Assembly (NCBI RefSeq): GCF_026410085.1
Contig: NZ_CP112866.1
Coordinates: forward strand, 186,001-250,000
Source: Pseudomonas quebecensis
GTDB lineage: Bacteria > Pseudomonadota > Gammaproteobacteria > Pseudomonadales > Pseudomonadaceae
Length of the DNA stretch: 64,000 nucleotides
Reading direction: 5' to 3'
Below are positions 12,989-27,191 of this stretch, piece by piece (the stretch's first letter is position 1; every line of letters starts with the position of its first letter). The notes beneath the pieces were generated by a model. It was not told the origin of the DNA. It made no database searches and worked only from the letters and a program-made list of their open reading frames with translations. Both the position numbers and the translations under genes were made by a program.

Positions 12989-13609
12989 CCCGCTGTGGGA
13001 GCCCAGTGAACCTCGTTTCCACGCTCTGCGTGGGAATGCCTCCATGGACGCTCCGCGTCCCGGCAAGCACGCAAGACTCGAACCTCGTGCATCTTGTGAC
13101 GCAGAGCGTCACGGGCTGCATTCCCACGCGGAGCGTGGGAACGATCGATGCTCAGAAGCTGATGAACCTCGTTCCCACGCTCTGCGTGGGAATGCCTCCA
13201 TGGACGCTCCGCGTCCCGGCAAGCACGCAAGATTTGAACCTTGTGCATCTTGTGACGCAGAGCGTCACGGGCTGCGTTCCCACGCGGAGCGTGGGAACGA
13301 TCGACGCTCAGAAGATGATGAACCTCGTTCCCACGCTCTGCGTGGGAATGCCTCCATGGACGCTCCGCGTCCCGCCAAGCACGCAAGACTTGAACCTTGT
13401 GCATCTTGTGACGCAGAGCGTCACGGGCTGCATTCCCACGCGGAGCGTGGGAACGATCGATGCTCAGAAGCCGATGAGCCTCGTTCCCACGCTCTGCGTG
13501 GGAATGCCTCCATGGACGCTCCGCGTCCCGGCAAGCACGCAAGATTTGAACCTTGTGCATCTTGTGACGCGGAGCGTCACGGGCTGCATTCCCACGCGGA
13601 GTGAACTGA

Positions 13610-13639
13610 CCCCCAAAGGTTGGACACAACCTTTGGGGG
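13610..13639 (+). promoter_or_regulatory. perfect leader hairpin over the orfA ribosome-binding region
   Basis: CCCCCAAAGGTTG and CAACCTTTGGGGG form a perfect 13-bp stem with a GACA loop, ending 4 bp before the orfA ATG. The right arm includes the G-run that would act as the Shine-Dalgarno sequence. In a transcript entering from outside the IS this structure would hide it. Confidence 0.6.
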
Positions 13640-13643
13640 CGTC

Positions 13644-14183
13644 ATGGGTAAGTACACAGAGCAAGCAAAACTCGCAGCCGTGCAGGACTATTGTTCCGGT
13701 AGCGCGGGTTTGAGGGATGTTGCACACCGTCACAATGTGGACTTTTCATCCCTTCGTCAGTGGGTCGCGGCCTATCAAGTGCATGGCGTTGCTGGACTTA
13801 AAGAGAAAAAGCTGCAGCGCTATAGCAACGACTTCAAACTGTCTGTTTTGAACCGTATGCGTGAGGAACAGCTGTCCTATCGGCAGACGGCGGCCTTGTT
13901 CGACATCCGTAAGTTCGACATCATCGGCCTCTGGGAACGCCGCTTTGATGAGGGCGGTTTTGATGCCCTTACCAAGCAGCCTAATAGAGCCGGACGTCCG
14001 AAAAAAATGCCGACCACCATTTCTCCTGTTCAACCCAGCTCAACCGATGACGAATCGCGCTCACGCGATGATTTGCTTGCCGAGGTGAAGCAGTTGCGAA
14101 TGGAAAACGACTACCTAAAAAAGCTCGATGCCTTGGTTCAGGAGAAGAAACGAATAGCGCAGCAGAAAAAGCGCAAATCGTAA
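13644..14183 (+). CDS. IS3-family transposase OrfA
   Basis: This 179-residue protein has two helix-turn-helix regions (residues about 5-50 and 60-105, SLRQWVAAYQVHGVAGL and IIGLWERRFDEGGFDAL) followed by a leucine-zipper-like coiled coil (LLAEVKQLRMENDYLKKLDALVQEKK) as in IS150 OrfA. These bind terminal repeats and mediate multimerisation. The frame ends at 14183, just after the slippage site at 14165-14171. The ATG at 13644 follows the GGGGG of the leader hairpin. Confidence 0.9.
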   Translation: MGKYTEQAKLAAVQDYCSGSAGLRDVAHRHNVDFSSLRQWVAAYQVHGVAGLKEKKLQRYSNDFKLSVLNRMREEQLSYRQTAALFDIRKFDIIGLWERRFDEGGFDALTKQPNRAGRPKKMPTTISPVQPSSTDDESRSRDDLLAEVKQLRMENDYLKKLDALVQEKKRIAQQKKRKS

Positions 14184-15016
14184 TAGGACTGAGGCCGCTG
14201 CATTCTCTCGAAAGCCTGCTGAAATTTGCCGGTTTGGCACGCAGCACCTTTTGCTATCAGCAAAAGGCGCTGCAAGCGGCTGATAAGTACGCAGAGCTGA
14301 AAGACAAGATTCGCTCGACGTTCGACGAGCACAAGGGCCGGTATGGCTATCGCCGCATAACGGCTGCTGTACGGAGCGCTGGTCATCTCGTCAATCACAA
14401 GACTGTTCAGCGACTGATGGCGCAGCTTCAGCTCAAGAGCTTGGTGCGGGTGAAGAAATACCGGGCCTACAAGGGAGAGGTAGGCAAGGCAGCGCCTAAT
14501 CTTTTGAAGCGTGAGTTCGAAGCTCCGTCACCCAATCAAAAGTGGGTAACCGACGTTACAGAGTTCAAAGTTGGAGGTCAGAAGCTTTATCTGTCTCCCG
14601 TTTTGGATCTGTACAACGGCGAAATCATTTCCTACGAGGTTGCCAGAAGACCGTTGTTCGATATGGTTGGGAAGATGCTCAAAGGTGCATTCAAGCGGCT
14701 TCAGCCGCATGAAAAACCGGTTTTGCACTCAGACCAGGGCTGGCAGTATCGAATGCCCATTTACCTGCGGGCTCTCAAAAAATGCTCCGTTACGCCGAGC
14801 ATGTCGCGCAAGGGTAACTGCTATGACAACGCGGCCATGGAGAGTTTCTTCGGCACACTGAAGTCCGAATTTTTTTATCTGAATAAATTTAACGACCTGG
14901 ATGAGCTTCACGCAGGCATCGACGAGTACATCCAGTATTACAATCACTCGCGTATCAGACTGAAGCTAAACGGCCTGAGTCCTGTTGAATACAGAATTCA
15001 GGCCGCTCAGGCATAG
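14165..15016 (+). CDS. IS3-family transposase OrfB, made by -1 frameshifting
   Basis: The DDE integrase-core frame lies in -1 relative to orfA. Upstream of its first possible start (TTG, 14234) it stays open back through GAAAAAG at 14165-14171, so an OrfAB fusion by slippage is the likely product. Catalytic motifs are WVTDVTEF (first Asp), LHSDQGWQY (second Asp) and NAAMESFFGTLKSE (Glu). The HTH_21-like N-terminus (HKGRYGYRRITAAVR) precedes the rve domain. Length and motifs are typical of IS150-group elements, so the transposase appears functional. Confidence 0.88.
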   Translation, partial: EKAQIVIGLRPLHSLESLLKFAGLARSTFCYQQKALQAADKYAELKDKIRSTFDEHKGRYGYRRITAAVRSAGHLVNHKTVQRLMAQLQLKSLVRVKKYRAYKGEVGKAAPNLLKREFEAPSPNQKWVTDVTEFKVGGQKLYLSPVLDLYNGEIISYEVARRPLFDMVGKMLKGAFKRLQPHEKPVLHSDQGWQYRMPIYLRALKKCSVTPSMSRKGNCYDNAAMESFFGTLKSEFFYLNKFNDLDELHAGIDEYIQYYNHSRIRLKLNGLSPVEYRIQAAQA

Positions 15017-15283: not shown

Positions 15284-17200
15284 TTAAGGGGGGGCTGGCG
15301 CAGGCTTGGGCACCAGGTCCGGCAGCGGCGGCGGCAGCGGCTGCCAGGTGGCATCCGGTTGTTGCATCGGCGGTGGCAGCGCCGGCGCAGGGTCGCCCCC
15401 AATTGGCTTGAGAATCATTTTTTCGGTGGTGTCGCGCAGGATCATGCCCTGCGTCGAACTGCGCGCCTCGGTGCCGCTGTGAAAGGTGCTGATCTGGGAA
15501 ATCGGCAGGTCCAGGTTGCGTTCGATTCTCGGGGTCAGCAACAGGATAATCTCGGTTTTCTGCTGAGTGTTCTGGTTGGAGCCAAACAGCTTCTTACCGA
15601 TCCACGGGATCTGGCTCAACCACGGCAAACCCGAGCCCTCGTCGACGTCCGCCGTGCGAATCAGCCCCGAGACGATCTGGGTTTCATTGTTGCGCGCGGT
15701 CAGCAAGGTCTTGGTGGCCCGTGAGCCGAGCTCGAACGTAGCCGGTACATGTTCCGAGCCGGCAATGCGCTTGGTGATATGGCTCATTTCCACGCTCAGC
15801 TCCAGGTTCACCTCATCGCTCAGGCTGATATTGGGCTTGACCGTGATCTGCAACCCCACGTCCTGGTAAGACACCGACGAGGTGGTGATCTGGTTGGCGG
15901 TGGTGGTGGTGACCACAGGGATCTTGTCACCGATGTTCACCTGGGCTTCTTCACGATTGCGCACCCGCACCCTGGGGTTGGCCAGGGTCACGGTGTTACC
16001 GCTGCGTTGCAGCATATTGATGCGTGCCGAGGTGCTGCCCGAGTCGAGCAGGATGTTGTCGCCATTGATCCCCCGCAACGCGCTGATCGGAATGCCCGCC
16101 AGCCCGGCAGGTACGTTGGCGAGGTTGCCCACGGATAAGCCGATGCTCTCCGGGTATTGGATGCCCAGGTTCAATTCGTCGGTCAGGCTGACCTCCAGCA
16201 CCTGAATGTCGATGGTCACTTCCGACTGTGCGATATCGATGGCCTCCACCAGTTTCTCCACGGCGCTCAGGGTGTCGAGGCCGTCGCGCACAATCACGGC
16301 GTTCAAACGCTCATCCACCAGCACTTCCTTGGGCTTGAGGGCTTGCTTGATCTCGGCGCCCACCACCTTGGGGTCACTGTGGCTGAGGTAAAACGTGCGC
16401 ACTGCCAGCTCGCGGTATTCACGTTCTTTGTCCGGGCGGCGCGGGTAGACCAGGATGGTGTTGGCGTTGAGGATCTTCTTCTCCAGGCCCTGGGTGGTCA
16501 GCAACAGGTTCAGTGCGTCCTCGGCGGTGGTGCGACTGGCGGTCATGCTGGCCGATGCGCTGGGATTGACGTCCTTGTCGATCACAAAATTGACCCCGGA
16601 CAGCCGCGCGATCGTCTCGAAAATCGTGGACAGGCTCTGGGCGCTGAACTCAAGGCTCAAAGGTTTGCGCATGGCTTCGGAGAGGTCCGCGCTGAGATAG
16701 TCGGCGCTGACCAACTCACGGGTCAGGGCGTTACGAAAGTCCAGGGCCTCTCGGTAGTTAGGCTTTTGCGCGATGATCCGGCGTACCAGGTTGAGCGCTT
16801 CCACCGGGTTGGAACGCTTCATGTCATAGGCCCGCGCCAGCTGCGGGCGCAGGTGCTTCATCGCCTGGATGCTCTGGATTTCCTGGCGCGCGCCGAGGTT
16901 GCCGGGGTCATATTTGAGGATGGTTTCCAGGGCGCGGATGGCGGCGGTATCGTCGCCACGCATCAGCGCGGTGCTGGCTTCGCGGCTGTATTGGGCCACC
17001 AGCAGTTCCAGCCTGCTGAACTGCGCGGTGCGCAGCTGAATATCGTCGGGATCCTGTTTGGCTTCGGCCTGCAGCACCTCGACAGAACGCACGATGTCGC
17101 CTTGTTTGCGTAACTCATCGCTTTGCCTGATCGCCCGCTGGGTGTCGCACGCACTCAGCGCGAACAGCGCCAGGCTCAAGGGAATCCATCTAAGCGGCAT
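15284..17200 (-). CDS. gspD: T2SS/T4P-type secretin, GspD-like lipoprotein
   Basis: This 638-residue protein starts with a lipobox (LSAC, Cys18), so it is probably self-anchoring in the outer membrane. A TPR-like N-terminal region (about 20-150) precedes secretin N-domains (VDERLNAVIVRDGLDTLSAVEKLVEAID) and a C-terminal secretin channel (VPATFELGSRATKTLLTARN, GLPWLSQIPWIGKKLFGS, EIILLLTPRI). A proline-rich tail ends the protein. It is the last gene of the minus-strand secretion operon, 18 bp after the PilP-like gene. The TPR-containing lipoprotein layout is unlike Xcp/Hxc GspD and closer to MSHA-type (MshL) or other T4P-like secretins. Confidence 0.88.
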   Translation of the reverse strand: MPLRWIPLSLALFALSACDTQRAIRQSDELRKQGDIVRSVEVLQAEAKQDPDDIQLRTAQFSRLELLVAQYSREASTALMRGDDTAAIRALETILKYDPGNLGARQEIQSIQAMKHLRPQLARAYDMKRSNPVEALNLVRRIIAQKPNYREALDFRNALTRELVSADYLSADLSEAMRKPLSLEFSAQSLSTIFETIARLSGVNFVIDKDVNPSASASMTASRTTAEDALNLLLTTQGLEKKILNANTILVYPRRPDKEREYRELAVRTFYLSHSDPKVVGAEIKQALKPKEVLVDERLNAVIVRDGLDTLSAVEKLVEAIDIAQSEVTIDIQVLEVSLTDELNLGIQYPESIGLSVGNLANVPAGLAGIPISALRGINGDNILLDSGSTSARINMLQRSGNTVTLANPRVRVRNREEAQVNIGDKIPVVTTTTANQITTSSVSYQDVGLQITVKPNISLSDEVNLELSVEMSHITKRIAGSEHVPATFELGSRATKTLLTARNNETQIVSGLIRTADVDEGSGLPWLSQIPWIGKKLFGSNQNTQQKTEIILLLTPRIERNLDLPISQISTFHSGTEARSSTQGMILRDTTEKMILKPIGGDPAPALPPPMQQPDATWQPLPPPLPDLVPKPAPAPP

Positions 17201-17218
17201 AAGCGTGCCCCTCCCGGG

Positions 17219-17707
17219 TCAGTGCTTGTCCAGGCGCAGGGTGCTGACCTGCTTCAACGGCAGGTAGGTCAGCACCACGGCGGTGTCGGTGAGTTTGTCC
17301 AAGCGGTAGTGGGCGTCCAGCATCTTGCCGGGCACGATGCGCCCGGGCACCGAGCATCGGTTGCACAGGGTGTACTGTTTGCCATTGCCGCTGAGCACGA
17401 CGATGTTCGCCTGGTTCTCGTAGCGCCATTGCGCGCTGACCGTGAAGGGCAGCGCCGGCGGCGTGGGCGCTGTGTTAACCACCGGCGCGGGAGCAGGCGG
17501 TGGCGTCCAGGTTTGTACGGGGAACAGATCGATCTTCGCCAGGGGCGTTTCGGCAATGGCGGCGGGCGCCGGTCCAGTCGGCGCCGGTGTGGCGGTGACA
17601 GGGGCCGCAGCGTGGTCGGGAGGTGCGGGTTCGTCCTGCCAGAACAGCCAGGCGCAACCGATCAACGTCAGCAGCAGGAGGAGGCGCAGGTACACCGGCA
17701 GCTTCAT
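17219..17707 (-). CDS. PilP/GspC-like inner-membrane linker protein
   Basis: This 162-residue protein has an N-terminal membrane helix (LPVYLRLLLLLTLIGCAWLF), a Pro/Ala-rich linker (about 25-100) and a small C-terminal beta domain (NIVVLSGNGKQYTLCNRCSVPGRIVPGKMLDAHYRLDKLTDTAVVLTYLPLKQ in outline). This layout is that of PilP or GspC, which connect the inner platform to secretin N-domains. Its ATG overlaps the TGA of the PilO-like gene by 4 bp. The assignment comes from architecture and position, not a clear family motif. Confidence 0.6.
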   Translation of the reverse strand: MKLPVYLRLLLLLTLIGCAWLFWQDEPAPPDHAAAPVTATPAPTGPAPAAIAETPLAKIDLFPVQTWTPPPAPAPVVNTAPTPPALPFTVSAQWRYENQANIVVLSGNGKQYTLCNRCSVPGRIVPGKMLDAHYRLDKLTDTAVVLTYLPLKQVSTLRLDKH

Positions 17708-18240
17708 TCCACCACCCCCAGGACGCTGATTTTAAGGTCGATGGTGAGTAGGCCGCTGGCGATGTCCTTGCGCTCCAGGGTCAGGTTTTCGATGCGCACC
17801 GCCGGCTCCTTGGCGATATCCGTCAAGGCTTCGCGCAGGAGAAAGTAGGGGCCGGAAAGAGGGATCTGCGCATCCAGGCGCTGCAATCCGGTATCCCCCG
17901 GCGTGGAGTAGGCCAGGGTGGTTTGCTCAATGATGAAACCGCGCTGGCTCAGCAGGCCCAGCAGTTTTTCCAGGCGCGGGGCAAAATCGGGTGCCGTGGG
18001 TAATGCCTCGACCGCCGCCGGTTCAGTTACCTGAACCGCCTGGGGCTGTTCGTCGATACCCGCTTGCAGCGCCTGGCGTCGCTGGCTGTCGGCGCTGCTT
18101 GCCGGCTGAATCACCGCCACCTCAATCAGCAACGTCGCTGCCATTACCCCCACGGCCAGCAGGCCCCAGAAGCCCAGGCGCTGGCGCGTTTGCATCAGGT
18201 ACCAACGCAGGCGCGGCAAGTGGCGAGTGAGGGCACCCAT
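17704..18240 (-). CDS. PilO/GspM-like platform protein
   Basis: This 178-residue bitopic protein has one membrane segment (FWGLLAVGVMAATLLIEVAVI, about 24-44), a short coiled region and a ferredoxin-like C-terminal domain (IEQTTLAYSTPGDTGLQRLDAQIPLSGPYFLLREAL). These are the features of PilO and GspM. It lies 6 bp after the PilN-like gene and overlaps the PilP-like gene by ATGA, so the four platform genes look translationally coupled. Confidence 0.65.
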   Translation of the reverse strand: MGALTRHLPRLRWYLMQTRQRLGFWGLLAVGVMAATLLIEVAVIQPASSADSQRRQALQAGIDEQPQAVQVTEPAAVEALPTAPDFAPRLEKLLGLLSQRGFIIEQTTLAYSTPGDTGLQRLDAQIPLSGPYFLLREALTDIAKEPAVRIENLTLERKDIASGLLTIDLKISVLGVVE

Positions 18241-18246
18241 GGGCGG

Positions 18247-18801
18247 CTACCCCGCGCCAACGGTGAGTTTGACTTGCACCGGATGCTGCGGGTCTTGGGT
18301 CTTCAGTGCGCTTTGTTGCAGGTTCACCTGCACCCCTGGCTGGGCCTTGAGCCGGTCCACGAAGCGAAACGCATCCCCCAGTTGCTTGGCTTCCAGGTCC
18401 AGGTGCACGACCTGGGCCTGGGTGTTGACCTCCACGCGGGTCAGGGCGATTTCCTTGGACCAGGCCTGCGCCACGCCATCCATCAGGGCAAACGGCGTGA
18501 TCTTTTGCCGGGCGAAGCTAGCCAGCTGCTGTTTTTGCTGGGGTGACAAACGGATGGCGGCCTGGATCAGCTGCTCCTGGCGGCGGGTGAGTTGAATAAA
18601 TTGCTGCTCCAGCACATCGGTCTGTTGCTGCTGTTGCACCATGCGCTGCCAGTGGTGCCAGGTGCTTGACAGCAACAGACCTGCGACCAGCCACAACCCG
18701 GCTACCAGGGCACGATGGGTGGGGGTGGGGCGTTGGAAATCAACGCTGGGCGCACGGGGCGCGCGCAGGTGTTGCCAGACACCCGCGAGCCTGGATTTCA
18801 T
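18247..18801 (-). CDS. PilN-like platform protein
   Basis: This 184-residue protein has a basic cytoplasmic N-terminus, one membrane helix (ALVAGLWLVAGLLLSS, about 32-48), a glutamine-rich coiled coil (MVQQQQQTDVLEQQFIQLTRRQEQL) and a periplasmic ferredoxin-like domain. That matches PilN or the periplasmic half of GspL. The ATG at 18801 overlaps the stop of the PilM-like gene (ATGA). The open frame extends 77 codons upstream of it but only as a shadow of the preceding gene. Confidence 0.65.
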   Translation of the reverse strand: MKSRLAGVWQHLRAPRAPSVDFQRPTPTHRALVAGLWLVAGLLLSSTWHHWQRMVQQQQQTDVLEQQFIQLTRRQEQLIQAAIRLSPQQKQQLASFARQKITPFALMDGVAQAWSKEIALTRVEVNTQAQVVHLDLEAKQLGDAFRFVDRLKAQPGVQVNLQQSALKTQDPQHPVQVKLTVGAG

Positions 18802-19523
18802 GACGGCGACTCCTCCAGCCACGGATGCACGGGCCCCAGGCGATTGTCCACCGGGGCGTTGCTGACAACCCGCGTAGCCGAGGCATGTCGTTCTACCAGC
18901 AGGTCGGTGGTGAACAGGTTGTCGTTCAAGGTGCTGCCGGGCAGGGTAGGGATCACGCACACCTGATCGATCATGCCGTGGTGTCGGTACAGGCAACTGA
19001 GGCTGCCGGCCTCGGGCACGGCTACCACGCAATCGTCGGGCAGGTGCCGCCAGTACTGCCGGGCGACTGCCGTCAGCACGGGCGCGCAGGTCACCAGCGG
19101 CAAGCGGTTGAGCGTGAACAGCTCGCGCAGGTCCTGCAGCACATCCCGTGGCGTGGCGACCGCCAGGCGCGGTTGACCGAAAGGGCTATCGGCGACCTGC
19201 ACCTGCCAGCGCTCGGCATCGATATTGGCCTGCTGGCCGAACGTCGCCTCGGCGAAGCCTTGCCAGTCCTGTGCGCTGTACAGCTCGGGGTGCCAGGGCA
19301 GCATCAGGTAATGCACATGGGGAAAACCCAGCAGCACCGTGGCACGGTCGAGAAACTTCACGCGCCCGCGTGGCGCCTGCTCCAGCAGTTCGGCACAGGC
19401 GGCCAGCGGCGCGCCCCGGCGTTGCGCGTGGCAGATGGGCGCGCCGCGCCAGCGGGCCCGCGCGGCCCATTCGGCGGCATCGCTGTGCAGCCACACCACG
19501 TGCTCAATAAAGGGAAATGACAC
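18798..19523 (-). CDS. PilM/GspL cytoplasmic-domain-like protein
   Basis: This 241-residue protein without a membrane segment occupies the PilM position between gspE and the PilN-like gene. The start is a GTG at 19523 behind a strong AAGGAGGT ribosome site that lies inside the end of gspE; the two genes overlap by 20 bp. Read this way the protein begins VSFPFIEHVVWLHSD. It looks like the detached cytoplasmic half of GspL, or PilM, which recruits the ATPase to the platform. Sequence identity to either family is weak by eye. Confidence 0.55.
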   Translation of the reverse strand: MSFPFIEHVVWLHSDAAEWAARARWRGAPICHAQRRGAPLAACAELLEQAPRGRVKFLDRATVLLGFPHVHYLMLPWHPELYSAQDWQGFAEATFGQQANIDAERWQVQVADSPFGQPRLAVATPRDVLQDLRELFTLNRLPLVTCAPVLTAVARQYWRHLPDDCVVAVPEAGSLSCLYRHHGMIDQVCVIPTLPGSTLNDNLFTTDLLVERHASATRVVSNAPVDNRLGPVHPWLEESPS

Positions 19524-21120
19524 GGTGGACCTCCTTGAGCGTGGTGTCGCCCTGAGCCGCATGGGCCAGGGCAATGTCGCGGATGAACACATGGCCGGCT
19601 TCACGCGCCAGTTCACGCAGGGTGGAGGCGGAGCTGCGGTTGAGCAGGCCTTCCTTGATGCGGTCGGTCAGGGTCAATACTTCGGCCAATGCGAGCCGGC
19701 CGCGATAGCCGGTGTGGCGACAGGCCTCGCACCCCTTGCCCACGCGGTAATGACCCTGGTTCAACTGAGCCTCGGGCAGTTGGGCGAGGCGGGCAATGTT
19801 CGCGTCGGGCGCGGCCTCCTCGGCGCAGTCCGGGCAGACGCGTCGCACCAGGCGTTGGGCGACCACGCCGTTGAGCGCTTCGACGAAACTCGCCGGGTCG
19901 ACGTCCATGTAGGTAAAACGCTCCAACACGCTGAACGCGCTGTTGGCATGCACCGACGACATCACCAGGTGCCCGGTCAGAGCGGCCTGCACCGCAATGC
20001 CGGCGGTTTCACCGTCGCGAATTTCGCCCACCAGGATCGTGTCCGGGTCATGCCGCAGGATCGAGCGCAGGCCGCGGGCGAAGGTCAGGCCCTTCTTGTC
20101 GTTGACCGGGATCTGCAGCACGCCGGGCAGTTCGTATTCCACCGGGTCTTCGATGGTGATGATTTTTTTCTCGCCGGTATTGGTCTCCGACAAGGCGGCA
20201 TACAGCGTGGTGGATTTGCCGCTGCCGGTGGGGCCGGTGACCAGCAGCATGCCGTAGGGCTCGCTGGCCAGGACGCGAATGCGCGCGATAGTGTCGGCGG
20301 CCAGGCCCAGGGCCTCCAGGCTCAGGGATTCGCCGCGCTGGGATTTGTCGAGGATGCGCAACACCGCGTCTTCGCCATGAATGCTGGGCATGATCGACAC
20401 GCGAAAATCCACTTCGCGGCTCTGGATCTTCATTTTGAAGCGCCCGTCCTGGGGCACCCGCCGCTCGCCGATATCCAGCTCCGACAGCACCTTGATCCGC
20501 GACAGCGCCTGCTCGGCCATGTCCAGGCCGCTGGCCTGGCCCATCTGCTGCAATACACCGTCGATGCGGTACTTGATCACCAGGCCGGCGGGACTGGTTT
20601 CCACATGGATATCGCTGGCGCGGCTTTGCAGCGCGTCGAACAGCATGGAGTTGACCAGACGCACCACTGGGTTGTCGTCGCGGGCGATGCTGCTCAGGGA
20701 AATTTCCTGGGCGGCCTGGCTGATCGGTGCGTCGGGGTCGTCTGCGCCAAACGGCTGCATCACCCGCTGGCTGGCTTCGGCCTTGGTCAACCGGGTCTTG
20801 ACGGCGCCGGGCAGGCTCATGGCCAGGGGCAATTGGCGCAAGGTGCTGGAGGACTGCAGCCAGTGTCGGCTGGTCAGGGTGAAGGGGTCGCCCAGTACCA
20901 GGCACGGCTGGCCCTCGTGGTCCAGGGGCAGCACGTTATGCACCAGTGCCTGAGGCAATGGCAGCAGGTCAAAGCGCCAGTGTTCATCGAGATTTTCCGG
21001 GGCAATGGCGAGCATTCCCAAAGTATGGGCGATCGTCGCCAGCTGTTCGGGCGCTGTGTGCAGCACCTCCAGCAGGTAATTGGATACGCTCAACCCGCGT
21101 TGCTCTGCGAGAGCCTGCAT
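19504..21120 (-). CDS. gspE: T2SS/T4P assembly ATPase, GspE/PilB family
   Basis: The 538-residue protein has a divergent N-terminal domain, the N2 domain (DIHVETSPAGLVIKYRIDGVLQ, about 170-190), Walker A GPTGSGKST (296-304), an Asp box (ITIEDPVEYELPG), a Walker B region (RSILRHDPDTILVGEIRD) and a His box (LTGHLVMSSVHAN). A tetracysteine zinc module (CPDC, then CEACRHTGYRGR) is present, as in GspE/PilB. It powers pseudopilus extension. The ATG at 21120 lies 24 bp after the gspF stop; no alternative in-frame start is available between them. Confidence 0.92.
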   Translation of the reverse strand: MQALAEQRGLSVSNYLLEVLHTAPEQLATIAHTLGMLAIAPENLDEHWRFDLLPLPQALVHNVLPLDHEGQPCLVLGDPFTLTSRHWLQSSSTLRQLPLAMSLPGAVKTRLTKAEASQRVMQPFGADDPDAPISQAAQEISLSSIARDDNPVVRLVNSMLFDALQSRASDIHVETSPAGLVIKYRIDGVLQQMGQASGLDMAEQALSRIKVLSELDIGERRVPQDGRFKMKIQSREVDFRVSIMPSIHGEDAVLRILDKSQRGESLSLEALGLAADTIARIRVLASEPYGMLLVTGPTGSGKSTTLYAALSETNTGEKKIITIEDPVEYELPGVLQIPVNDKKGLTFARGLRSILRHDPDTILVGEIRDGETAGIAVQAALTGHLVMSSVHANSAFSVLERFTYMDVDPASFVEALNGVVAQRLVRRVCPDCAEEAAPDANIARLAQLPEAQLNQGHYRVGKGCEACRHTGYRGRLALAEVLTLTDRIKEGLLNRSSASTLRELAREAGHVFIRDIALAHAAQGDTTLKEVHRVISLY

Positions 21121-21144
21121 TGCCGTGTCTGTTCGCTCATCGCA

Positions 21145-22329
21145 CTACCCCTGAATGGAGCCCGCCAGTTCAAAGATCGGCATGTACAACATGAACACGA
21201 TCAGGCCAATCAGCCCGCCCACCACCAGCATCAACACCGGCTCGAAGACCTTGCTGAACAGCTCGATGGCGCGCTCCAGCGCCTCATCGTGAAACTGCGC
21301 GATGCGCTCGCACATGGCCGCCAATTCGCCGCTTTGTTCACCGACCCGCAGCAGGCGTTCGGCGACGGCGGTGGTCAGTTGGTGACGGGCCAATGACGTG
21401 GACAGCGGCTGACCGGACTGGATATCGATCATGGCTTGGCGCAGGGCTGCCTGGCGTTCCACAGGCAGCAGGGCACCGGACAGTTCCACCGCTGTGACCA
21501 CCGGCATTCCGCCCATCAACAGCATGCCGGCGGTGCGATAAAACCGCGCGAGTACAAACAGCGTGCGCTGGGCGCCCAGGCTGGGAATCTTCCAGAACAG
21601 CTCGGCCGCGCGACGTTTGAACGCGGCACTGCGAAACAGCAGCACCAGCGCGACGATTGCCAGCACCAGGCCGATCAGTAACTCCATGCCGCGCGCCTCC
21701 ACCAGCGCGCCCCACCACACCATCAAACGCGCGGTGGCAGGCAGGTCGTTGACCGCGTCGAACACCGAAGCGAAGCGTGGGATCACGAAGAACAGCAGAA
21801 ACAGCAGGATCAACGCACCCACGCTGAGCACCACCACGGGGTACATCAGGGCGCCGCTGACGCGTTTTTTCACGCTTTCCAAGTGCGCTTCAAAATGATG
21901 GTAGCGGCGCAGGGCCACGGCCAATTGGCCGCTGTGCTCGGAGGACGCCACGGTGGCGATCAACAGCGACGGGAACGTCTGCGGCTTGAGCTGCAGCGCT
22001 TTGGATAACGAGTTGCCCTCATACATCGACGCCAGCAGGTCGCTCATCACTTGCCGGTTGATGCCAGGCGGTGCCTTGTCGCGCAGGGTTTCCACGGCTT
22101 CCACCAGCACCAGGCCGGCGTCGAGCAGCACCACCAATTCCTGGATGAACAAGCCAAGGGCGAACCTGGACCGCCGGCTCGGTAATTTGAGTTGGCGACG
22201 GGCTTTCAACGAGATGACCTGGGCGCCGTCGGCCTGCAATTGCCGGCGCGCCTGGGCCAGGTCGGTGGCTTGCAGATGCAGGGACTGCAAGTGGCCATCG
22301 CGGATGATTCGCGCGTCGATGTCGATCAT
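21145..22329 (-). CDS. gspF: T2SS/T4P polytopic platform protein GspF/PilC
   Basis: This 394-residue protein contains two GspF domains with three membrane regions (VVVLSVGALILLFLLFFVIPRF, LLIGLVLAIVALVLLF and VFEPVLMLVVGGLIGLIVFMLYMPIF). It is the polytopic core of the assembly platform. The ATG at 22329 (MIDIDARIIRDG) overlaps the stop of the lytic transglycosylase gene (ATGA). An open frame reaching 22386 is a shadow extension. It is followed by gspE. Confidence 0.92.
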   Translation of the reverse strand: MIDIDARIIRDGHLQSLHLQATDLAQARRQLQADGAQVISLKARRQLKLPSRRSRFALGLFIQELVVLLDAGLVLVEAVETLRDKAPPGINRQVMSDLLASMYEGNSLSKALQLKPQTFPSLLIATVASSEHSGQLAVALRRYHHFEAHLESVKKRVSGALMYPVVVLSVGALILLFLLFFVIPRFASVFDAVNDLPATARLMVWWGALVEARGMELLIGLVLAIVALVLLFRSAAFKRRAAELFWKIPSLGAQRTLFVLARFYRTAGMLLMGGMPVVTAVELSGALLPVERQAALRQAMIDIQSGQPLSTSLARHQLTTAVAERLLRVGEQSGELAAMCERIAQFHDEALERAIELFSKVFEPVLMLVVGGLIGLIVFMLYMPIFELAGSIQG

Positions 22330-22790
22330 GGCGTTTGCCTGGCCAGTTGCTGGCGCTGCTGCAGCAGCTCGCCGTAATAACGCCACACGGCGCGAGCGTA
22401 GCGTGTGCGCCGCGCTTCACGCTCCGGCTTGGCGCCTGCGTTGTAAGCGCCCACGGCCTGCCAGCCATAACCTTTTTCGCGGATGAAACCGGCGAGAATC
22501 CATGCGCCGACCATCACGCTGGTGCAGGGTTGCTGGAGCAGGTGCCGTTCGGTGATGCCGAACGCGGCCAGCGCGGGCAAATGGCGGCTGTTGATTTGCA
22601 TCAGGCCGATATCCTGGCTGCCGTCGGTGTTGATATTGCGCGCGTCAGGGTTGAGGCCGGACTCGACCTTGGCAATGGCATACAGCAGCAGTGGGTCGAC
22701 GTGGTAGCGGCTGGCTGCCAGTTGCCAGCAGTTGGCCTGGGCTGTACCCGTGAGGCACAGGAGCGTCAGGACCAGCCGCAGCGTGCGCAT
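22326..22790 (-). CDS. lytic transglycosylase, IagB/VirB1/PilT-type SLT domain
   Basis: The 154-residue protein has a signal peptide (RTLRLVLTLLCLTGTAQA) and an SLT domain with catalytic Glu in AIAKVESGLNP, the GLMQINSRH motif and AVGAYNAG. Small enzymes of this type open peptidoglycan for secretion or conjugation machines. The ATG at 22790 is one base after the gspG stop, and its own stop overlaps the gspF start. Embedding between gspG and gspF suggests a dedicated role in letting this machine span the cell wall. Confidence 0.85.
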   Translation of the reverse strand: MRTLRLVLTLLCLTGTAQANCWQLAASRYHVDPLLLYAIAKVESGLNPDARNINTDGSQDIGLMQINSRHLPALAAFGITERHLLQQPCTSVMVGAWILAGFIREKGYGWQAVGAYNAGAKPEREARRTRYARAVWRYYGELLQQRQQLARQTP

Positions 22791-22791
22791 G

Positions 22792-23223
22792 TCACAGACC
22801 GTACACAATGTCGGCGTAGGTGTTCACACCGCCGGCCTTACCGTCGCGGCCCAGCGAGATGATTTCCGCATCGTTGGGCGGGGTGCCGGGGTTCTTGTAG
22901 AGATAAGCGTTGCCCCAAGGGTCTGGGGGTAACGTTTTCAAATACGGCCCCTGCCAATTGCCCGAATTGGTGGGCCGCGTGGTCAACGCATTCAGGCCGA
23001 GGGTTTCGTCGGGGTAGTTGCCATTGTCCAGACGGTACTGGTTCAAGGCATCGGCGAGGGACTTCATCTGGCCCTGGGCGGTTTGCACCTTGGCGAGTTC
23101 AAGGCGGTCGAACATCTTCGGGCCGACGTAGCCGGCGAGCAGGGCGATGATCAGCAGGACGACCAGCAGTTCAAGTAACGTAAAGCCGCCCTGAGGCGGG
23201 GCGATAAGCGTGCGTGCGCGCAT
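22792..23223 (-). CDS. gspG: major pseudopilin GspG
   Basis: This 143-residue protein has a class III prepilin leader ending at Gly13, then FTLLELLVVLLIIALLAGYVGPK with Glu at mature position 5. The globular part carries GspG signatures: YRLDNGNYPDETLGLNALTTRP, GPYLKTLPPDPWGNAYLY and SLGRDGKAGGVNTYADI. It is the calcium-binding-type major pseudopilin of T2SS. No prepilin peptidase is nearby, so PilD elsewhere probably processes it. Confidence 0.93.
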   Translation of the reverse strand: MRARTLIAPPQGGFTLLELLVVLLIIALLAGYVGPKMFDRLELAKVQTAQGQMKSLADALNQYRLDNGNYPDETLGLNALTTRPTNSGNWQGPYLKTLPPDPWGNAYLYKNPGTPPNDAEIISLGRDGKAGGVNTYADIVYGL

Positions 23224-23333
23224 GGCAATCCTCGACGGTTGGGAGTAACTCTCTGCCGGCCCGTTGGGGAAGCGGGCACCGCCGGTAGGACTGCGTTATA
23301 ACCATTACTGCTTCCAATTGTAGCGGTGCGCGA

Positions 23334-23359
23334 TATAAGGCGCCGTAAGGCGCCCTATA
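23334..23359 (-). terminator. hairpin between the LPMO gene and gspG
   Basis: TATA-A-GGCGCC-GTAA-GGCGCC-C-TATA forms an extended stem-loop in the 181-bp gap downstream of the LPMO gene. It has no clear U-run, so partial attenuation is as likely as termination. Confidence 0.4.
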
Positions 23360-23404
23360 ACGTTTGGCGCTTGCTGTTATCAAGTCAGCGCATATGCCGG
23401 TGAC

Positions 23405-24982
23405 TCAAGGAACAACATCCCATGCGCGCTGCCAGAAAGTGGAGCCGGGTTTGCCGGGTTCATTTTCAATCTGCCCGCACCATGCGCCTGCTGATCCCTG
23501 TTTGCACCGATACTTCACTCCATGGTTGGAGACTTGTGAGCCGCTGTTGTAGGTGTAGGCAACTTCCGATAGCCACTGAGGGAAACCGTCATTGTGCCCA
23601 GCCTTTTTGATCACGAAGGTCGTTTCCTTCTGGCCGTTTTTCCGATTTTGCGCGTCATAAACGCCTAATTTAATGATGTAGTTAGGCTGCGGAGCGCCCG
23701 GAACGGGATCGACATACGGGCCCACCTTGAAGGAAAAGGTGCTCTGGTGGTTGGGTGGGGGCGAAGCATGGTCCGAAGCGTTTGTGGACCATATATACGT
23801 AAGAGGACCGTTGTGTCCGACTGAGCTTCTGCCGTCGAATGTGACGGTTTCACCTTCTTTGGCTTCGGTTGGGCCTTGGAAGTTGGCAGTAGGAGGGCGT
23901 TCATCAGGGGTTTCACCGCCGCCGGTAATGATCGACATCACCTGTTTGTAATGCGGGTTAGTGGCATAGGTTGCATTGGCCTGCGGGTTAGCAGAGTTGA
24001 ACGTAACCGTACCATTGGCTTTTACGCCGATTTTGGCAATGGCAGGGGGGACCTGGTTGGCTATTTCCAGTCCCCATTTGGCCGGTGCCAAATTATCGGT
24101 TCGGATTTTCTGGGTGATATCCACCAATTCCGTTCCTTTGGCATCGACCCCAAAGATCCGGAAGTGGACGGAGTCGCCGACTTTGAGCGATTGCATATCG
24201 GGACCGATGTAAGGGCCGATATTTGTCAGCGGGTCCGGAACACCGCCACTTTGGAACCTTACATCTGAACAAGAAATGAAGAACTCGCCATTTGGATCAT
24301 CCCTGACCCATATTCCTACCACCAATCCATTACCCGATGCGTTGCTGGGGATAGTCCGATTGATCACATAAAAACCTGCAAGCCCGGGGAGCAAGGCGGG
24401 TGGGTTCCAATTGGTGTACGCCTTTTCGAGTCTTTCGGGTCCCCCCAAGGCGATTAAATCACTCCATTTCAATACGTCAGTCGCGCTGTTAAAACCAGGC
24501 CTGGTTATAAACGCATAAAACGTGCTGGGCACATGAAGAATTGTGCCAACAAGGCGTATAGCCAGTGATTGACCTGGCACTACATTTTCCTTGTACTTTG
24601 TCCATAACGGAGTGGGGTAATCCAAGCTGGCTTTTTTCGGATCATTTGCTGCGCATATGTGGCCGTCCGGAATAATGGCCTTGATCTGATCCAACGTCGG
24701 ATGGTTGATCTCCGGAATCTTCGCAACCTCGTGCCATTGATCGGCGGCAATTGCCCAGTCATTGGTGGAATTGAATGTTTTTGTAAAAGCCTCTCGACAG
24801 CCTTCATCTTTAATAGATGAGCCATTAGCAGAGCCCCAGTGTCCTCCCGTTACGTAACAGTTCAAAGCACGGGATGGAGGCGTTTCGACAGCCCCATGCC
24901 CCCATCCTGCTGCGGGTGCCAATAACACCGCTGCCAGGACCCACTTGAATAAGTCTCTCGCGTAGCTCTGTAAATTATTCAT
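23405..24982 (-). CDS. AA10 lytic polysaccharide monooxygenase with PKD and CBM modules
   Basis: The 525-residue precursor has a signal peptide ending GWG before His29, giving the mature N-terminus HGAVETPPSR expected for the copper histidine brace of AA10 enzymes. His150 (TILHVPSTFYAFITRPGFN) is the likely second copper histidine. A middle region with no clear family call, a PKD-like domain (about 370-450) and a C-terminal CBM5/12- or CBM73-like module (WLSEVAYTYNSGSQVSNHG, cysteine pair CKQGSAGAWC) follow. Oxidative attack on chitin or cellulose is inferred. Composition is visibly AT-richer than neighbouring secretion genes. It lies within the pseudopilin genes and is the probable cargo. 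Confidence 0.87.
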   Translation of the reverse strand: MNNLQSYARDLFKWVLAAVLLAPAAGWGHGAVETPPSRALNCYVTGGHWGSANGSSIKDEGCREAFTKTFNSTNDWAIAADQWHEVAKIPEINHPTLDQIKAIIPDGHICAANDPKKASLDYPTPLWTKYKENVVPGQSLAIRLVGTILHVPSTFYAFITRPGFNSATDVLKWSDLIALGGPERLEKAYTNWNPPALLPGLAGFYVINRTIPSNASGNGLVVGIWVRDDPNGEFFISCSDVRFQSGGVPDPLTNIGPYIGPDMQSLKVGDSVHFRIFGVDAKGTELVDITQKIRTDNLAPAKWGLEIANQVPPAIAKIGVKANGTVTFNSANPQANATYATNPHYKQVMSIITGGGETPDERPPTANFQGPTEAKEGETVTFDGRSSVGHNGPLTYIWSTNASDHASPPPNHQSTFSFKVGPYVDPVPGAPQPNYIIKLGVYDAQNRKNGQKETTFVIKKAGHNDGFPQWLSEVAYTYNSGSQVSNHGVKYRCKQGSAGAWCGQIENEPGKPGSTFWQRAWDVVP

Positions 24983-25055
24983 GCTCTAGTCCACCTTCAA
25001 TTCAGATAAACAAGTTCCGAACTGCTGGAACGATCAGTGTGTTTACGTCGTTAAG

Positions 25056-25562
25056 TCATTGAGTCAGCTGATCTCCCATGGGAGCGGTGCGGGTTGCAGG
25101 GTTACTCTGTACAGAGCCATACAGAAACACCCACCCTTGATAACTGCCTTGCCCTGTAAAACGTTGGTTAATGACAGAAAAGTTGCCTTGTTTGAACGGT
25201 GTGCCTTCGGCCTGGCTGAATACGCCCATGATGGTTTCGCCCGGACCCGCGACCACGCCCCAATCGGTGGTGCCGGTCAGCGGGTCGGTGTAGACCCGGC
25301 GCAGATAGCGCTTGATGGTCGGTTGGCGGCGGTCGAGGACCAGATCTTCAAGTGATTTGGGAAAGGTGTTGCCGGCCGCATAGTACAAGCCGATGGCCCG
25401 TCGGATTTCATTGCCGCGCGCCAGCAGTTCCAGCTCGCGTTCGCGCTGCAGCACGCTGGACCACAGCGTGCCCACTTCCATCAGCATCACGGCCACTACG
25501 GCCACGGTCACCAACATGCCCATGAACACCGAGCCTTGCTGGTGCTGTTTACCAGTCGGCAT
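25056..25562 (-). CDS. pseudopilin-like protein lacking Glu5
   Basis: This 168-residue protein starts MPTGKQHQQG followed by SVFMGMLVTVAVVAVMLMEVG. The short basic leader, the Gly before the helix and the single N-terminal helix are prepilin-like, but mature position 5 is Gly rather than Glu. It retains GspG-type features (IRRAIGLYY, RRVYTDPLTGTTDWGV). Missing Glu5 is typical of tip pseudopilins such as GspK. The ATG at 25562 overlaps the upstream pseudopilin gene by 14 bp and has a GGGAG ribosome site; an ATG at 25577 is less well placed. Confidence 0.72.
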   Translation of the reverse strand: MPTGKQHQQGSVFMGMLVTVAVVAVMLMEVGTLWSSVLQRERELELLARGNEIRRAIGLYYAAGNTFPKSLEDLVLDRRQPTIKRYLRRVYTDPLTGTTDWGVVAGPGETIMGVFSQAEGTPFKQGNFSVINQRFTGQGSYQGWVFLYGSVQSNPATRTAPMGDQLTQ

Positions 25563-25929
25563 AGGCGCTCCCGTCATTGGCGGTGCCGGGCGCGCCGCTG
25601 CGTACGTCGCCCAGGCCTTGTTCGTCGGAGGGCTGCAGTTGCCAGGTGTCGCGCTTGCCGGTCAGCGGGTCCAGGGGGATTTCACGCAGGTAACGGCGGT
25701 CCACCAGGGCTTGCAGGGAGGCGGGGTTTTCACCGTGGTCTTCACGGTATTGATCCAGTGCCTGGCGAATGGTGGAGAGGTTATGGCGCAGCACGGTCTC
25801 CTGGGCCTTGGCGTGCTGGCGAAAATATTGTGGCGTGACCAGCGTCATGAGTGTGGCGATGATTGCCATCACCACCAGCAATTCGATCAAGGTAAAACCG
25901 CGCTCACCACTGGCTGTATAACGTTCCAT
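25549..25929 (-). CDS. GspG-like pseudopilin
   Basis: This 126-residue protein has a leader ending at Gly11, then FTLIELLVVMAIIATLMTLV with Glu5, and a short globular domain with DQYREDHGENPASLQALV and REIPLDPLTGKRDTW. It resembles the GspG family but lacks the full C-terminal region. It overlaps the upstream pseudopilin gene by 26 bp and the downstream one by 14 bp, implying coupled translation of the three. It may be a minor pseudopilin. Confidence 0.82.
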   Translation of the reverse strand: MERYTASGERGFTLIELLVVMAIIATLMTLVTPQYFRQHAKAQETVLRHNLSTIRQALDQYREDHGENPASLQALVDRRYLREIPLDPLTGKRDTWQLQPSDEQGLGDVRSGAPGTANDGSAYADW

Positions 25930-26401
25930 TCAAACTCTCCCGTGGGCTGCGGGATGAAACGTCGAATACATCTTCTCCCTCTTGTGGGTTGTCGGCGGTG
26001 CTCTTGTAACTGCGCAGTTGCCAGATCTTTTCCGGCGCAAGTTCGGGGCACTCGCAAAGAGGGTCCCGAGGAATGCGCCGCAGAAAATAGAGTTTGTTGC
26101 CCTGCAGGTTGGTTTTGTCGGTGACGCCGTCGACCAATATCCGCAAGGAGGGCGGGTAACCACTGTCGGTGACGCTCTTCTCGATGCGTCCGTCGTCACT
26201 GGCTTCTTTGTAGGAATCAATGGCGCGGCGTATCTCTCGCAACGAACGTTGCAAGTCGAGTTCTCGGTCGCGTTTACCCATCAATGCTGTCAGCGGATAA
26301 GCCACTGTCGCCAGCGTGGCCAGCAAGGCCAGCGTCAGTAGTAATTCAATCAGCGTAAAACCTTTGGCGCAGTGATGGCTGGGCGTGCCCTGCCACATCA
26401 C
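25904..26401 (-). CDS. GspG-like pseudopilin, first gene of the secretion cluster
   Basis: This 165-residue protein has a leader ending at Gly14, then FTLIELLLTLALLATLATVA with Glu5. The globular part contains EIRRAIDSYKEASDDGRIEK, GYPPSLRILVDGV and FLRRIPRDPLCECPELAPEKIW, a GspG-like layout with a Cys pair. It is the most upstream gene of the minus-strand cluster, so the promoter should lie in the repeat-rich gap to its right. The second Met (26398) is an alternative start. Confidence 0.82.
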   Translation of the reverse strand: MMWQGTPSHHCAKGFTLIELLLTLALLATLATVAYPLTALMGKRDRELDLQRSLREIRRAIDSYKEASDDGRIEKSVTDSGYPPSLRILVDGVTDKTNLQGNKLYFLRRIPRDPLCECPELAPEKIWQLRSYKSTADNPQEGEDVFDVSSRSPRESLNGTLYSQW

Positions 26402-27191
26402 CGTTCTACCTCCCGATCAGGCTGCCAAGGACTTCCGCGTTAACCCAGGCCATGGAATTGACTGCAAAGGTGAGTGTAGATGCAGTGTGTTTTTTGTACA
26501 GGTATGCAGTTACCCACAAACGCTGTGAGCGCAGCTGTGGATAAGGTGTTCGTGGGTGCCCACAAGCCTCGTCAATCGAGGGCTACAGGCTCCTGTACGA
26601 AAATTGATCAAGCTAAGTCACGGTTTTTTGGTGCTTTTCCGTGTGGATAAAGGTCAGGCATCGGTTGGACTTGCCCCCAAAGTCTGTTGGCGCTTCTGTG
26701 GATAAGATGTTCGCTATCCGCTACAGGCCTTATAAAACGGGGTTCTTAATCGTTTGGTTGTTTATTGATCAAATCGCCGCTTAAACCAAAGAATGGCGCT
26801 GAAACCCTCGCGTTATGAAGGTTGTGCTCGGTTTTCCACAGCCTGGTAGAAGTTGCCCCCAAAGTCTGTTGGCGGTTCTGTGGATAAGGTGTTTGCGCAC
26901 CGCTACAGGTCACGGTTTACGTGGCTTATAGGCTTGTGATTAATAAATGATCAATATATTGAGTGAGCCGTCAACTTGAATAAGTCACGGATTTTCTTCA
27001 GTTAATTTTGGCCGGCTAGCGCAGTTGCCCACAATTGCTGTGGGTGGGTTTGTGGATAAGTTGTTGGGTAAAGGCTGCAGGGCAGGCTGGCAGTGGCCTG
27101 CGAGAGATATGATCAAATGTTGAGCAGTGTGAGGATCAAATGTGGGAGGGGTAAGCCCCTCCCATCTGTTTTTTTGAGCTATGGGTATCGG
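26402..27191. other. 790-bp gene-free stretch with degenerate DnaA-box-containing repeats
   Basis: No gene is supported here. Four degenerate repeats of about 160-180 bp share TTGCCCMCAAA-like, TGTGGATAAG-TGTT, GCTACAGGC and TGATCA elements in that order. Perfect TGTGGATAA (complement of the DnaA box TTATCCACA) lies at 26536, 26642, 26697, 26879 and 27051, all in one orientation. TGATCA lies at 26605, 26766, 26948 and 27110. The promoter of the secretion cluster should be at the left end. A REP hairpin lies at 27141-27165. Confidence 0.75.
27141..27165. repeat. REP-type hairpin downstream of gbcA
   Basis: TGTGGGAGGGG-TAAG-CCCCTCCCATC forms a strong hairpin. The T-run lies on the side away from gbcA, so it would serve rightward, not gbcA, transcripts. 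It is best read as a single REP element. Confidence 0.6.

Follow-up and report, generated by a model that had tools for sequence, protein, structure and literature searches.

GbpA of Vibrio, an AA10 lytic polysaccharide monooxygenase (LPMO) with further modules behind its catalytic domain, is exported by a type II secretion system (T2SS). CbpD of Pseudomonas aeruginosa, a protein of the same build, is exported by type II machinery according to passages of PMC7902821, and the parts of PMC12369383 and PMC7902821 that deal with the Txc system of Pseudomonas paraeruginosa PA7 describe a T2SS locus near a chitin-binding, LPMO-type substrate, CbpE. Here we analyse a locus of thirteen minus-strand genes (positions 15284-26401) in a 64,000-nucleotide stretch of Pseudomonas quebecensis DNA (contig NZ_CP112866.1, positions 186,001 to 250,000; hereafter the window; genome size, 5.6 Mb), in which an AA10 LPMO gene lies among the genes of a T2SS-like machine. 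We infer, with a probability of roughly 0.7, that the locus is a dedicated, non-canonical T2SS-like exporter that carries its own swappable LPMO cargo with chitin-type binding modules.

Txc has a GspL protein (TxcY) and a two-component regulator (PMC12369383), and the PA7 island system clusters with Xcp (PMC3570484); set against that description, the window locus differs in having separate PilM-, PilN-, PilO- and PilP-like proteins, a secretin that is a TPR-lipoprotein, and a hypervariable LPMO within the operon. The Hpl cluster of PAO1 (PA2669-PA2677), whose XcpR-like proteins served as outgroup to Xcp and Hxc in the pertinent section of PMC3570484, offers a likeness as a named, little-studied additional T2SS-like cluster; it differs in being putative and incomplete in the text of PMC12369383 that mentions it, and is set beside the window locus by description rather than by sequence. 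Denise et al. 2019 (PMC6668835), in the part concerned with classification, distinguish T2SS, MSH, T4aP, T4bP, ComM, Tad, archaeal and remaining 'generic' systems, and the window locus might be a member of the generic class, judged by description rather than by their models. No account of the locus or of a variable cargo slot was found in open-licence PMC articles (titles, beginnings of abstracts and some passages), a statement about those sources and not a claim of absence from print.

Results

The genes are transcribed in the order ppA, ppB, ppC, LPMO, gspG, SLT, gspF, gspE, pilM, pilN, pilO, pilP, secretin, with the coordinates of the earlier note (ORF list and window sequence). We compared 31 distinct loci (the window, L007-L026, L087, L092-L097 and L189-L191) after dropping duplicates (L028=L025, L086=L008, L088=L009, L089=L016, L090=L014, L091=L017, L187=L023 and L188=L015). 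A complete slot between ppC and gspG is present in 30 of them, L010 standing outside the slot counts with its slot lost at a contig end, and all 30 slots hold an LPMO gene, with an intact frame in 28 and a frame split into separate pieces in two (L092 and L190; in L190, gspF also matches over half its length only). Every carrier genome (19 of 19) has an LPMO at the locus, and in the window genome the slot LPMO is the sole LPMO_10 match.

Occupancy is constant and the occupant is not. Across 20 core loci, which include the near-copy pair window/L025, the cargo proteins average 43% identity with a minimum of 20%, whereas the other 12 proteins average 71-91%, the lowest single machine pairs being 51% for PilO and 56% for ppC; over all pairs, mean cargo identity is 42%. 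L092 and L190, together with L189 and L191, stand outside the identity matrices and cargo trees. The same pattern appears in nucleotides. Between the window and 16 relatives, mean identity is 86% in ppC, 84% in the 5′ flank of the cargo gene, 76% in its 3′ flank and 84% in gspG, as against 55% in the cargo leader and 45% and 43% in the remainder, such that the non-coding DNA on both sides is more conserved than the gene it encloses. In the clearest of nine pairs examined, L020/L023, identity steps from 95% at the end of ppC to 46% in the catalytic part and back to 89% from gspG to the secretin; in L008/L009 the corresponding values are 92%, 53% and 92%. From these comparisons the LPMO position appears to be an exchangeable, hypervariable cargo slot.

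Cargo and machine histories conflict in several groupings. A machine tree built from six proteins (25 rows) was set against a cargo tree of the LPMO plus GbpA_2 domains, with L025, the near copy of the window, excluded from all trees. L020 and L023 are machine sisters (100/100) whose GspE proteins are 93% identical while their cargos are 20% identical, and the cargo data reject the pair with a p-AU of 1e-84. They also reject a grouping of the window, L014 and L020, which have a common CBM type (4e-69), and the pair L008/L009 (8e-41), which the machine tree places close together, though not as exact sisters. Conversely, on the machine data three cargo pairs are rejected: L018/L020 (4e-118), L019/L023 (8e-6) and L014/L087 (6e-4). 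Modules are shuffled within the gene as well: L014 and L087 are 84% identical in the LPMO domain and 31% in the CBM, the window and L020 are 82% identical in the CBM and 40% in the LPMO domain, and 15 of 300 pairs combine a CBM identity of at least 80% with an LPMO identity of at most 50%. The cargos of L019 and L023 belong to another AA10 subclade of GbpA/CbpD-like type, 45-54% identical to 14 LPMOs encoded elsewhere in Pseudomonas genomes; this GbpA-like group is confined to these two, the other 23 of the 25 cargos in the tree belonging to a different AA10 group. Cargo GC content averages 55.4% against 62.4% for gspE plus secretin, and the cargo has the lower value in all 25 of the 25 relatives, which would be expected of a gene taken from a broader pool.

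Exchange has left the predicted active site intact. Each of the 26 scanned cargos has matches to LPMO_10 and GbpA_2, with CBM_5_12 in 19 and PKD_4 in 15 (E≤0.001), and none of the 26 differs at His29, His150, Phe235, Cys42 or Cys62. In the window cargo, LPMO_10 (107 bits, cut-off 23) is followed by GbpA_2; CBM_5_12 gives no match at E≤0.001, and the C-terminal part corresponds to the region that matches CBM_5_12 in most relatives. His29 is the first residue past the signal peptide, the cleavage site being judged by eye. With LPMO_10 at the mature N-terminus, two brace histidines and an agreeing fold, the protein is an AA10 LPMO; its model (pLDDT 81.9, pTM 0.47) matches CbpD, AsLPMO10B, GbpA and entomopoxvirus fusolin in the catalytic domain. 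The copper site and enzymatic function are thus predicted, by conservation and modelling, to be retained in the slot LPMOs. The location of the gene within an exporter operon sets it apart from CbpD, whose gene is not known to lie in the operon of its exporter.

The exporter itself is a separate branch of type IV filament machines, related to the usual T2SS, as judged from family scores and trees. GspG is the sole part above its NCBIfam cut-off (144 against 88.9 bits) and scores as a T2SS major pseudopilin. Equivalog cut-offs are missed by GspE (480 of 630 bits), GspF (234 of 424) and the secretin, whether scored as GspD (152 of 351), PilQ (137 of 284) or MshL (100 of 250); the ATPase likewise falls short of PilB (445 of 676), and the SLT protein exceeds the general SLT model (93 against 21 bits) and misses the IagB equivalog (184.5 of 208). 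In the GspE tree (75 rows, with six of 30 window-group relatives; L167 yielded no ATPase) a 100/100 branch splits the window group from all T2SS, MSHA and PilB references. Two of 31 T2SS rows, including the window genome's own, lie apart from the other 29 and yet on the reference side of that branch. In the GspF tree (48 rows, with every second T2SS locus plus L117 and L157 as T2SS rows) the corresponding branch, against T2SS, MSHA and PilC references, has 100/99 support; L154 and L167 (none found), L164 (short), L173, L175, L180 and the GspF-less clusters L098-L105 are omitted from it.

These results bear on membership in the named systems. Canonical T2SSs (Xcp, Hxc) share GspD, GspE, GspF and GspG homologues with the window locus, in which a folded periplasmic cargo is expected, but are rejected by the GspE, GspF and GspD scores, by the strong branches in both trees and by gene content, no fused GspL-type protein appearing in Pfam and NCBIfam scans of the 13 genes. 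MSHA is rejected by the MshL score and by the distance of ATPase and platform from all MSHA rows in both trees; its gene order, too, is presumably unlike that of the window locus. It has in common with that locus the lack of its own prepilin peptidase in a single-locus system, as stated in part of Denise et al. 2019 (PMC6668835). The type IVa pilus is similar in its separate PilM-like protein of matching fold and in the order M-N-O-P-secretin, but differs in PilT, absent here, in the GspG-type major subunit and in the TPR-lipoprotein secretin, and is rejected by the PilB score and by the position of the ATPase away from PilB. Txc, encoded by PSPA7_1407-1417 and known here by description, is rejected by gene content: there is no GspL, and no two-component protein among nine scanned neighbour proteins. 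GspE is the sole T2SSE-type ATPase among the 13 proteins, and the locus is therefore without a retraction ATPase. PADLOC returned no result for the secretin, LPMO and SLT proteins. The earlier note had favoured an independent machine over Txc, and the separate PilM- and PilN-like proteins, the neighbours without a two-component protein and the position of GspE and GspF off all references agree with it; of the trees it had proposed, those of GspE and GspF show this separation, and the comparison of gene order across Pseudomonas that it suggested finds platform order and ppC position kept in relatives. "Minimal" fits poorly a machine of 13 genes with four pseudopilins and an extra transglycosylase.

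Features of the locus are collected in the table. The gene content proposed in that note is borne out by coordinates and by Pfam and NCBIfam scans; its statement that most genes overlap by 1-26 bp is not, since overlaps (4-29 bp) occur at six of 12 junctions, with gaps of 1-24 bp at four others, and the LPMO gene alone has longer gaps at both ends (73 and 181 bp). Starts refined from the sequence are GTG 19523 for pilM (241 aa), ATG 18801 for pilN (184 aa), ATG 22790 for SLT and ATG 22329 for gspF. Of the proposed PilM-N-O-P platform, PilM is supported by a fold model, which also matches the cytoplasmic domain of GspL, with FtsA close behind, and its profile finds nothing among PDB sequences at E≤1, so that the match is by fold only; PilN, PilO and PilP are assigned by order and size, the latter two also by a hydrophobic segment. 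The reported absence of GspH, GspI, GspJ and GspK holds in that no such model reaches its cut-off, and is qualified by ppC, which has no match in the Pfam or NCBIfam scans and lacks the prepilin Glu5, a trait we take to be that of GspK. A prepilin peptidase is indeed missing from the window: the two A24 enzymes found genome-wide both lie outside it, one directly after a PilC-like gene.

Table. Features of the exporter locus in the window, in order of transcription.
Feature	Position	Strand	Basis and remarks
Minor pseudopilin ppA	25904..26401	-	Class III N-terminus; probable ATG 26398; Pfam N_methyl 30.3 bits; GspG 22 bits, under cut-off
Minor pseudopilin ppB, GspG-like	25549..25929	-	N_methyl 33.4 bits; GspG 62 bits against cut-off 88.9; 26 bp overlap with ppA
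Minor pseudopilin ppC	25056..25577	-	Hydrophobic segment 17-35 after Gly, without Glu5; place beside ppB kept in relatives
Non-coding 5′ flank of cargo gene	24983..25055	-	Conserved; small GTTCC/GGAAC hairpin; nucleotide identity and alignment
Putative cargo, AA10 LPMO, GbpA_2, PKD-like and C-terminal part	23405..24982	-	Pfam; PDB sequence and fold matches; invariant residues
Non-coding 3′ flank, cargo to gspG	23224..23404	-	Two conserved stem-loops; alignment and consensus fold
Major pseudopilin GspG	22792..23223	-	TIGR01710 144 bits, cut-off 88.9
SLT-type lytic transglycosylase, IagB-like	22326..22790	-	Apparent signal sequence; Pfam SLT 93 bits; IagB 184.5, cut-off 208
Platform protein GspF	21145..22329	-	T2SSF 133 bits; tree
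Assembly ATPase GspE	19504..21120	-	T2SSE 414 bits; Walker A GPTGSGKS, two CxxC; tree
PilM-like actin-fold protein	18798..19523	-	Size near that of GspL cytoplasmic domain; fold model
PilN-like protein	18247..18801	-	Order and size; gene order kept in relatives
PilO-like protein	17704..18240	-	One N-terminal hydrophobic segment; order and size
PilP-like protein	17219..17707	-	One N-terminal hydrophobic segment, proline-rich linker; order and size
Lipoprotein secretin	15284..17200	-	Lipobox LSAC; TPR-like N-terminal part, STN, Secretin_N, Secretin; Pfam Secretin 118 bits

The 3′ flank of the cargo gene contains two strongly conserved stem-loops, one of which (CGGTGCCCGC...GCGGGCC) is near-invariant in 19 loci. 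Covariation is thin (two-sided change in two of 24 pairs, covariation term 0), and the stem-loops are therefore conserved but unproven as RNA. A known regulatory RNA in the flanks was rejected: Rfam families gave no hit to 23150-25100 at E≤1, nor any across the window at gathering score. Promoter-like sites numbered one against 3.2 in shuffled sequences; the terminator-like scan, which has the GTTCC/GGAAC hairpin of the 5′ flank among its sites, showed no clear excess (14 against 12.0). The conserved flanks could be recombination anchors, elements that control the ratio of cargo to machine, or both.

The locus is not a one-off: 31 distinct loci are accompanied by a wider family of related clusters, both in further Pseudomonas and in other members of the class. 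Of 398 genomes of the genus, 19 have a secretin match at E≤1e-150 (66-100% identical), as do seven of 194 mixed relatives, these seven all being Pseudomonas, and the best identity outside the genus is 36% among full-length matches in 369 class genomes. In an earlier draw of 298 genomes, 14 had a secretin at least 66% identical and 99 others had a 31-35% relative only, with G275 having both. The closest named record found was Pseudomonas lurida 114A4, at 97-100% over the 13 proteins.

The insertion site is constant at one end and largely so at the other, since the same two genes recur beside the locus. In 28 of 30 relatives an EtfA-type flavoprotein gene (705 bits, cut-off 600) comes next after the secretin, within 0.8-1.4 kb, the exceptions being L014, whose contig stops after 1.5 kb, and L021, with 2.5 kb free of etfA. 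On the ppA side, 17 distinct relatives had 2.6 kb or more of sequence read, and 13 of these have gbcA (811 bits, cut-off 670), 11 of them at 0.8-0.9 kb and two at 2.2-2.8 kb; the gene did not turn up in the 2.6-4.8 kb read upstream of ppA in L095, L097, L189 and L191, a divergent subgroup to which L096, with gbcA at 0.9 kb, also belongs. In five of nine operon-less genomes a stretch of 1.3-2.3 kb, free of operon genes, separates gbcA from etfA, and in the other four the second gene was not found in the sequence covered.

Several neighbouring features were also noted. In the window the secretin-etfA interval is about 3.1 kb, as against 0.8-1.4 kb in the 28 relatives, and an IS3-family element lies in it at 13620-15016 (transposase 332 bits, cut-off 160); the adjoining 12772-13629 is a repetitive array with long ORFs on both strands and a recurrent 'SHAERGNE' translation. 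Upstream of the operon, 26502-27081 holds four 65-nt direct repeats, each with TTATCCACA, which we take to be DnaA-box-like; the window has 12 nine-mers of the TTATCCACA type where 0.22 would be expected, and five lie within this interval. Eight inspected Pseudomonas genomes (L098-L105), of 100 with a 31-35% secretin, have a second cluster in the order gspE-pilM to P-TPR secretin-ppABC, in which profiles find neither gspF nor gspG within 20 kb. In L100, CsgE, CsgF and CsgG come after this cluster, while a cytochrome c/binding-protein fusion, a SurA-like protein and a response regulator come before it, and the nearest GspF listed for the genome is about 14 kb from the cluster gspE. Related secretins of Eleftheria (L184:13086-15470) and Janthinobacterium (L186:3895-6219) are annotated with a cohesin domain, with a Pfam match for L184, and the large proteins beside them may be cargo.

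Discussion

What the sequences support directly is the gene content, the site, the conserved slot, cargo exchange and an intact copper site; that the LPMO is the cargo is suggested by its position and its likeness to CbpD, CbpE and GbpA. This dependence on analogy is one of several points that weigh against a dedicated exporter with swappable cargo. In a census of 39 genomes (19 carriers and 20 non-carriers), eight carriers have the slot LPMO alone and 11 have a further LPMO elsewhere, and nine non-carriers also have an LPMO, such that LPMOs are independent of a need for the locus machine. The window genome encodes a canonical T2SS GspE above its cut-off, whose system could export the LPMO, and three wider-family rows lie on the other side of the GspF branch. 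With respect to exchange, the machine data do not clearly reject the cargo pair L017/L026 (p-AU 0.051); L022 and L094 are sisters in both trees, and L095-L097 stand together in both; and in three of the nine pairs compared by nucleotide (L022/L094, L095/L096 and L017/L026) identity does not fall clearly across the catalytic part. The groups tested were picked once identities were known, and the p-AU values are therefore descriptive. Finally, cargo distance correlates weakly with GspE distance in Mantel tests over 22 loci (r 0.29, p 0.04; 12 tests, uncorrected, L025 and L095-L097 excluded).

Some of these points would fit an alternative in which the canonical T2SS of the same cell exports the LPMO while the locus builds a short surface filament, the LPMO being a bystander or a filament-associated adhesin. 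CbpD does leave by type II machinery (PMC7902821, in the passages cited above), and LPMOs occur in genomes that lack the locus. We nevertheless consider this alternative unlikely: an LPMO is kept at one place in 30 of 30 slotted loci despite repeated replacement, the major subunit scores above the GspG cut-off, and no retraction ATPase is present.

Very fast evolution of a resident cargo gene, with no exchange at all, would account for the pairs on which both trees agree and for the fact that most cargo pairs can be aligned over all modules. It would also be in keeping with the diversity of LPMOs outside the slot. Fourteen of these were sampled, 10 from carriers, and in the seven carriers whose slot cargo is in the matrix the outside LPMO averages 67% identity (minimum 56%) against 48% (minimum 38%) for the slot LPMO; in a close trio (G067, G101 and G171) the values are 82-90% against 51-60%. 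Hypervariability is thus stronger in the slot, outside LPMOs of some of the same genomes varying less without being uniform. The conflict between cargo and machine trees, the second AA10 subclade in L019 and L023, and the opposite identity patterns of modules in one gene make evolution in place very improbable. A degenerate or silent locus, surviving by chance with relaxed selection on its LPMO, could be read into the two broken frames among 30 slots and the IS3-type element 3′ of the window secretin, but is scarcely credible when copper-site residues and Cys42/Cys62 are invariant at a mean cargo identity of 42%, frames are intact in 28 of 30 slots and the machine proteins are conserved.

We propose that in the dedicated exporter the LPMO would cross the inner membrane via its signal peptide, presumably by Sec, fold and load copper in the periplasm, and be recognised there by the PilM-N-O-P platform and the secretin. 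A GspG pseudopilus with a tip of ppA, ppB and ppC, built by GspE and GspF from prepilins that may be matured in trans by a PilD encoded elsewhere, would then push the LPMO out through the TPR-lipoprotein secretin, for which the transglycosylase may open the peptidoglycan. The slot would be held by conserved DNA on both sides, and the LPMO swapped whole or by module through recombination with versions from other lineages. Because the LPMO is exchanged with its copper site kept, the machine probably recognises a feature distinct from the catalytic domain's variable surface. Co-evolution of the cargo with a machine part was not supported: past GspE, no part reaches 0.05 (PilM r 0.22, p 0.08; PilN 0.16, p 0.14; SLT 0.12, p 0.20; the remaining eight, -0.15 to 0.07), and the finding that no platform part tracks cargo distance at that level fits a machine blind to the variable surface.

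A bolder and more tentative reading, to which we give somewhat less than even odds, is a polymorphic cargo system, in which LPMO alleles or modules come from a shared pool, recombine via the flanks, and are kept varied by diversifying or frequency-dependent selection. The selecting agents might be differing chitinous opponents, hosts, or predators or phages that recognise the secreted protein, and the exporter would by implication be promiscuous for cargo surface. If true, the system would be like polymorphic toxins or surface antigens, with an oxidative enzyme in their place.

To our knowledge, how T2SS-like machines recognise folded cargo is a long-open question. The loci described here constitute a natural experiment, in which more than 20 intact cargo versions, certain of them only 20% identical to one another, sit in machines whose proteins average 71-91% identity in the core set, and features common to all cargos, or co-varying among them, should indicate the secretion signal. 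For Pseudomonas, the locus points to LPMOs as quickly changing tools.

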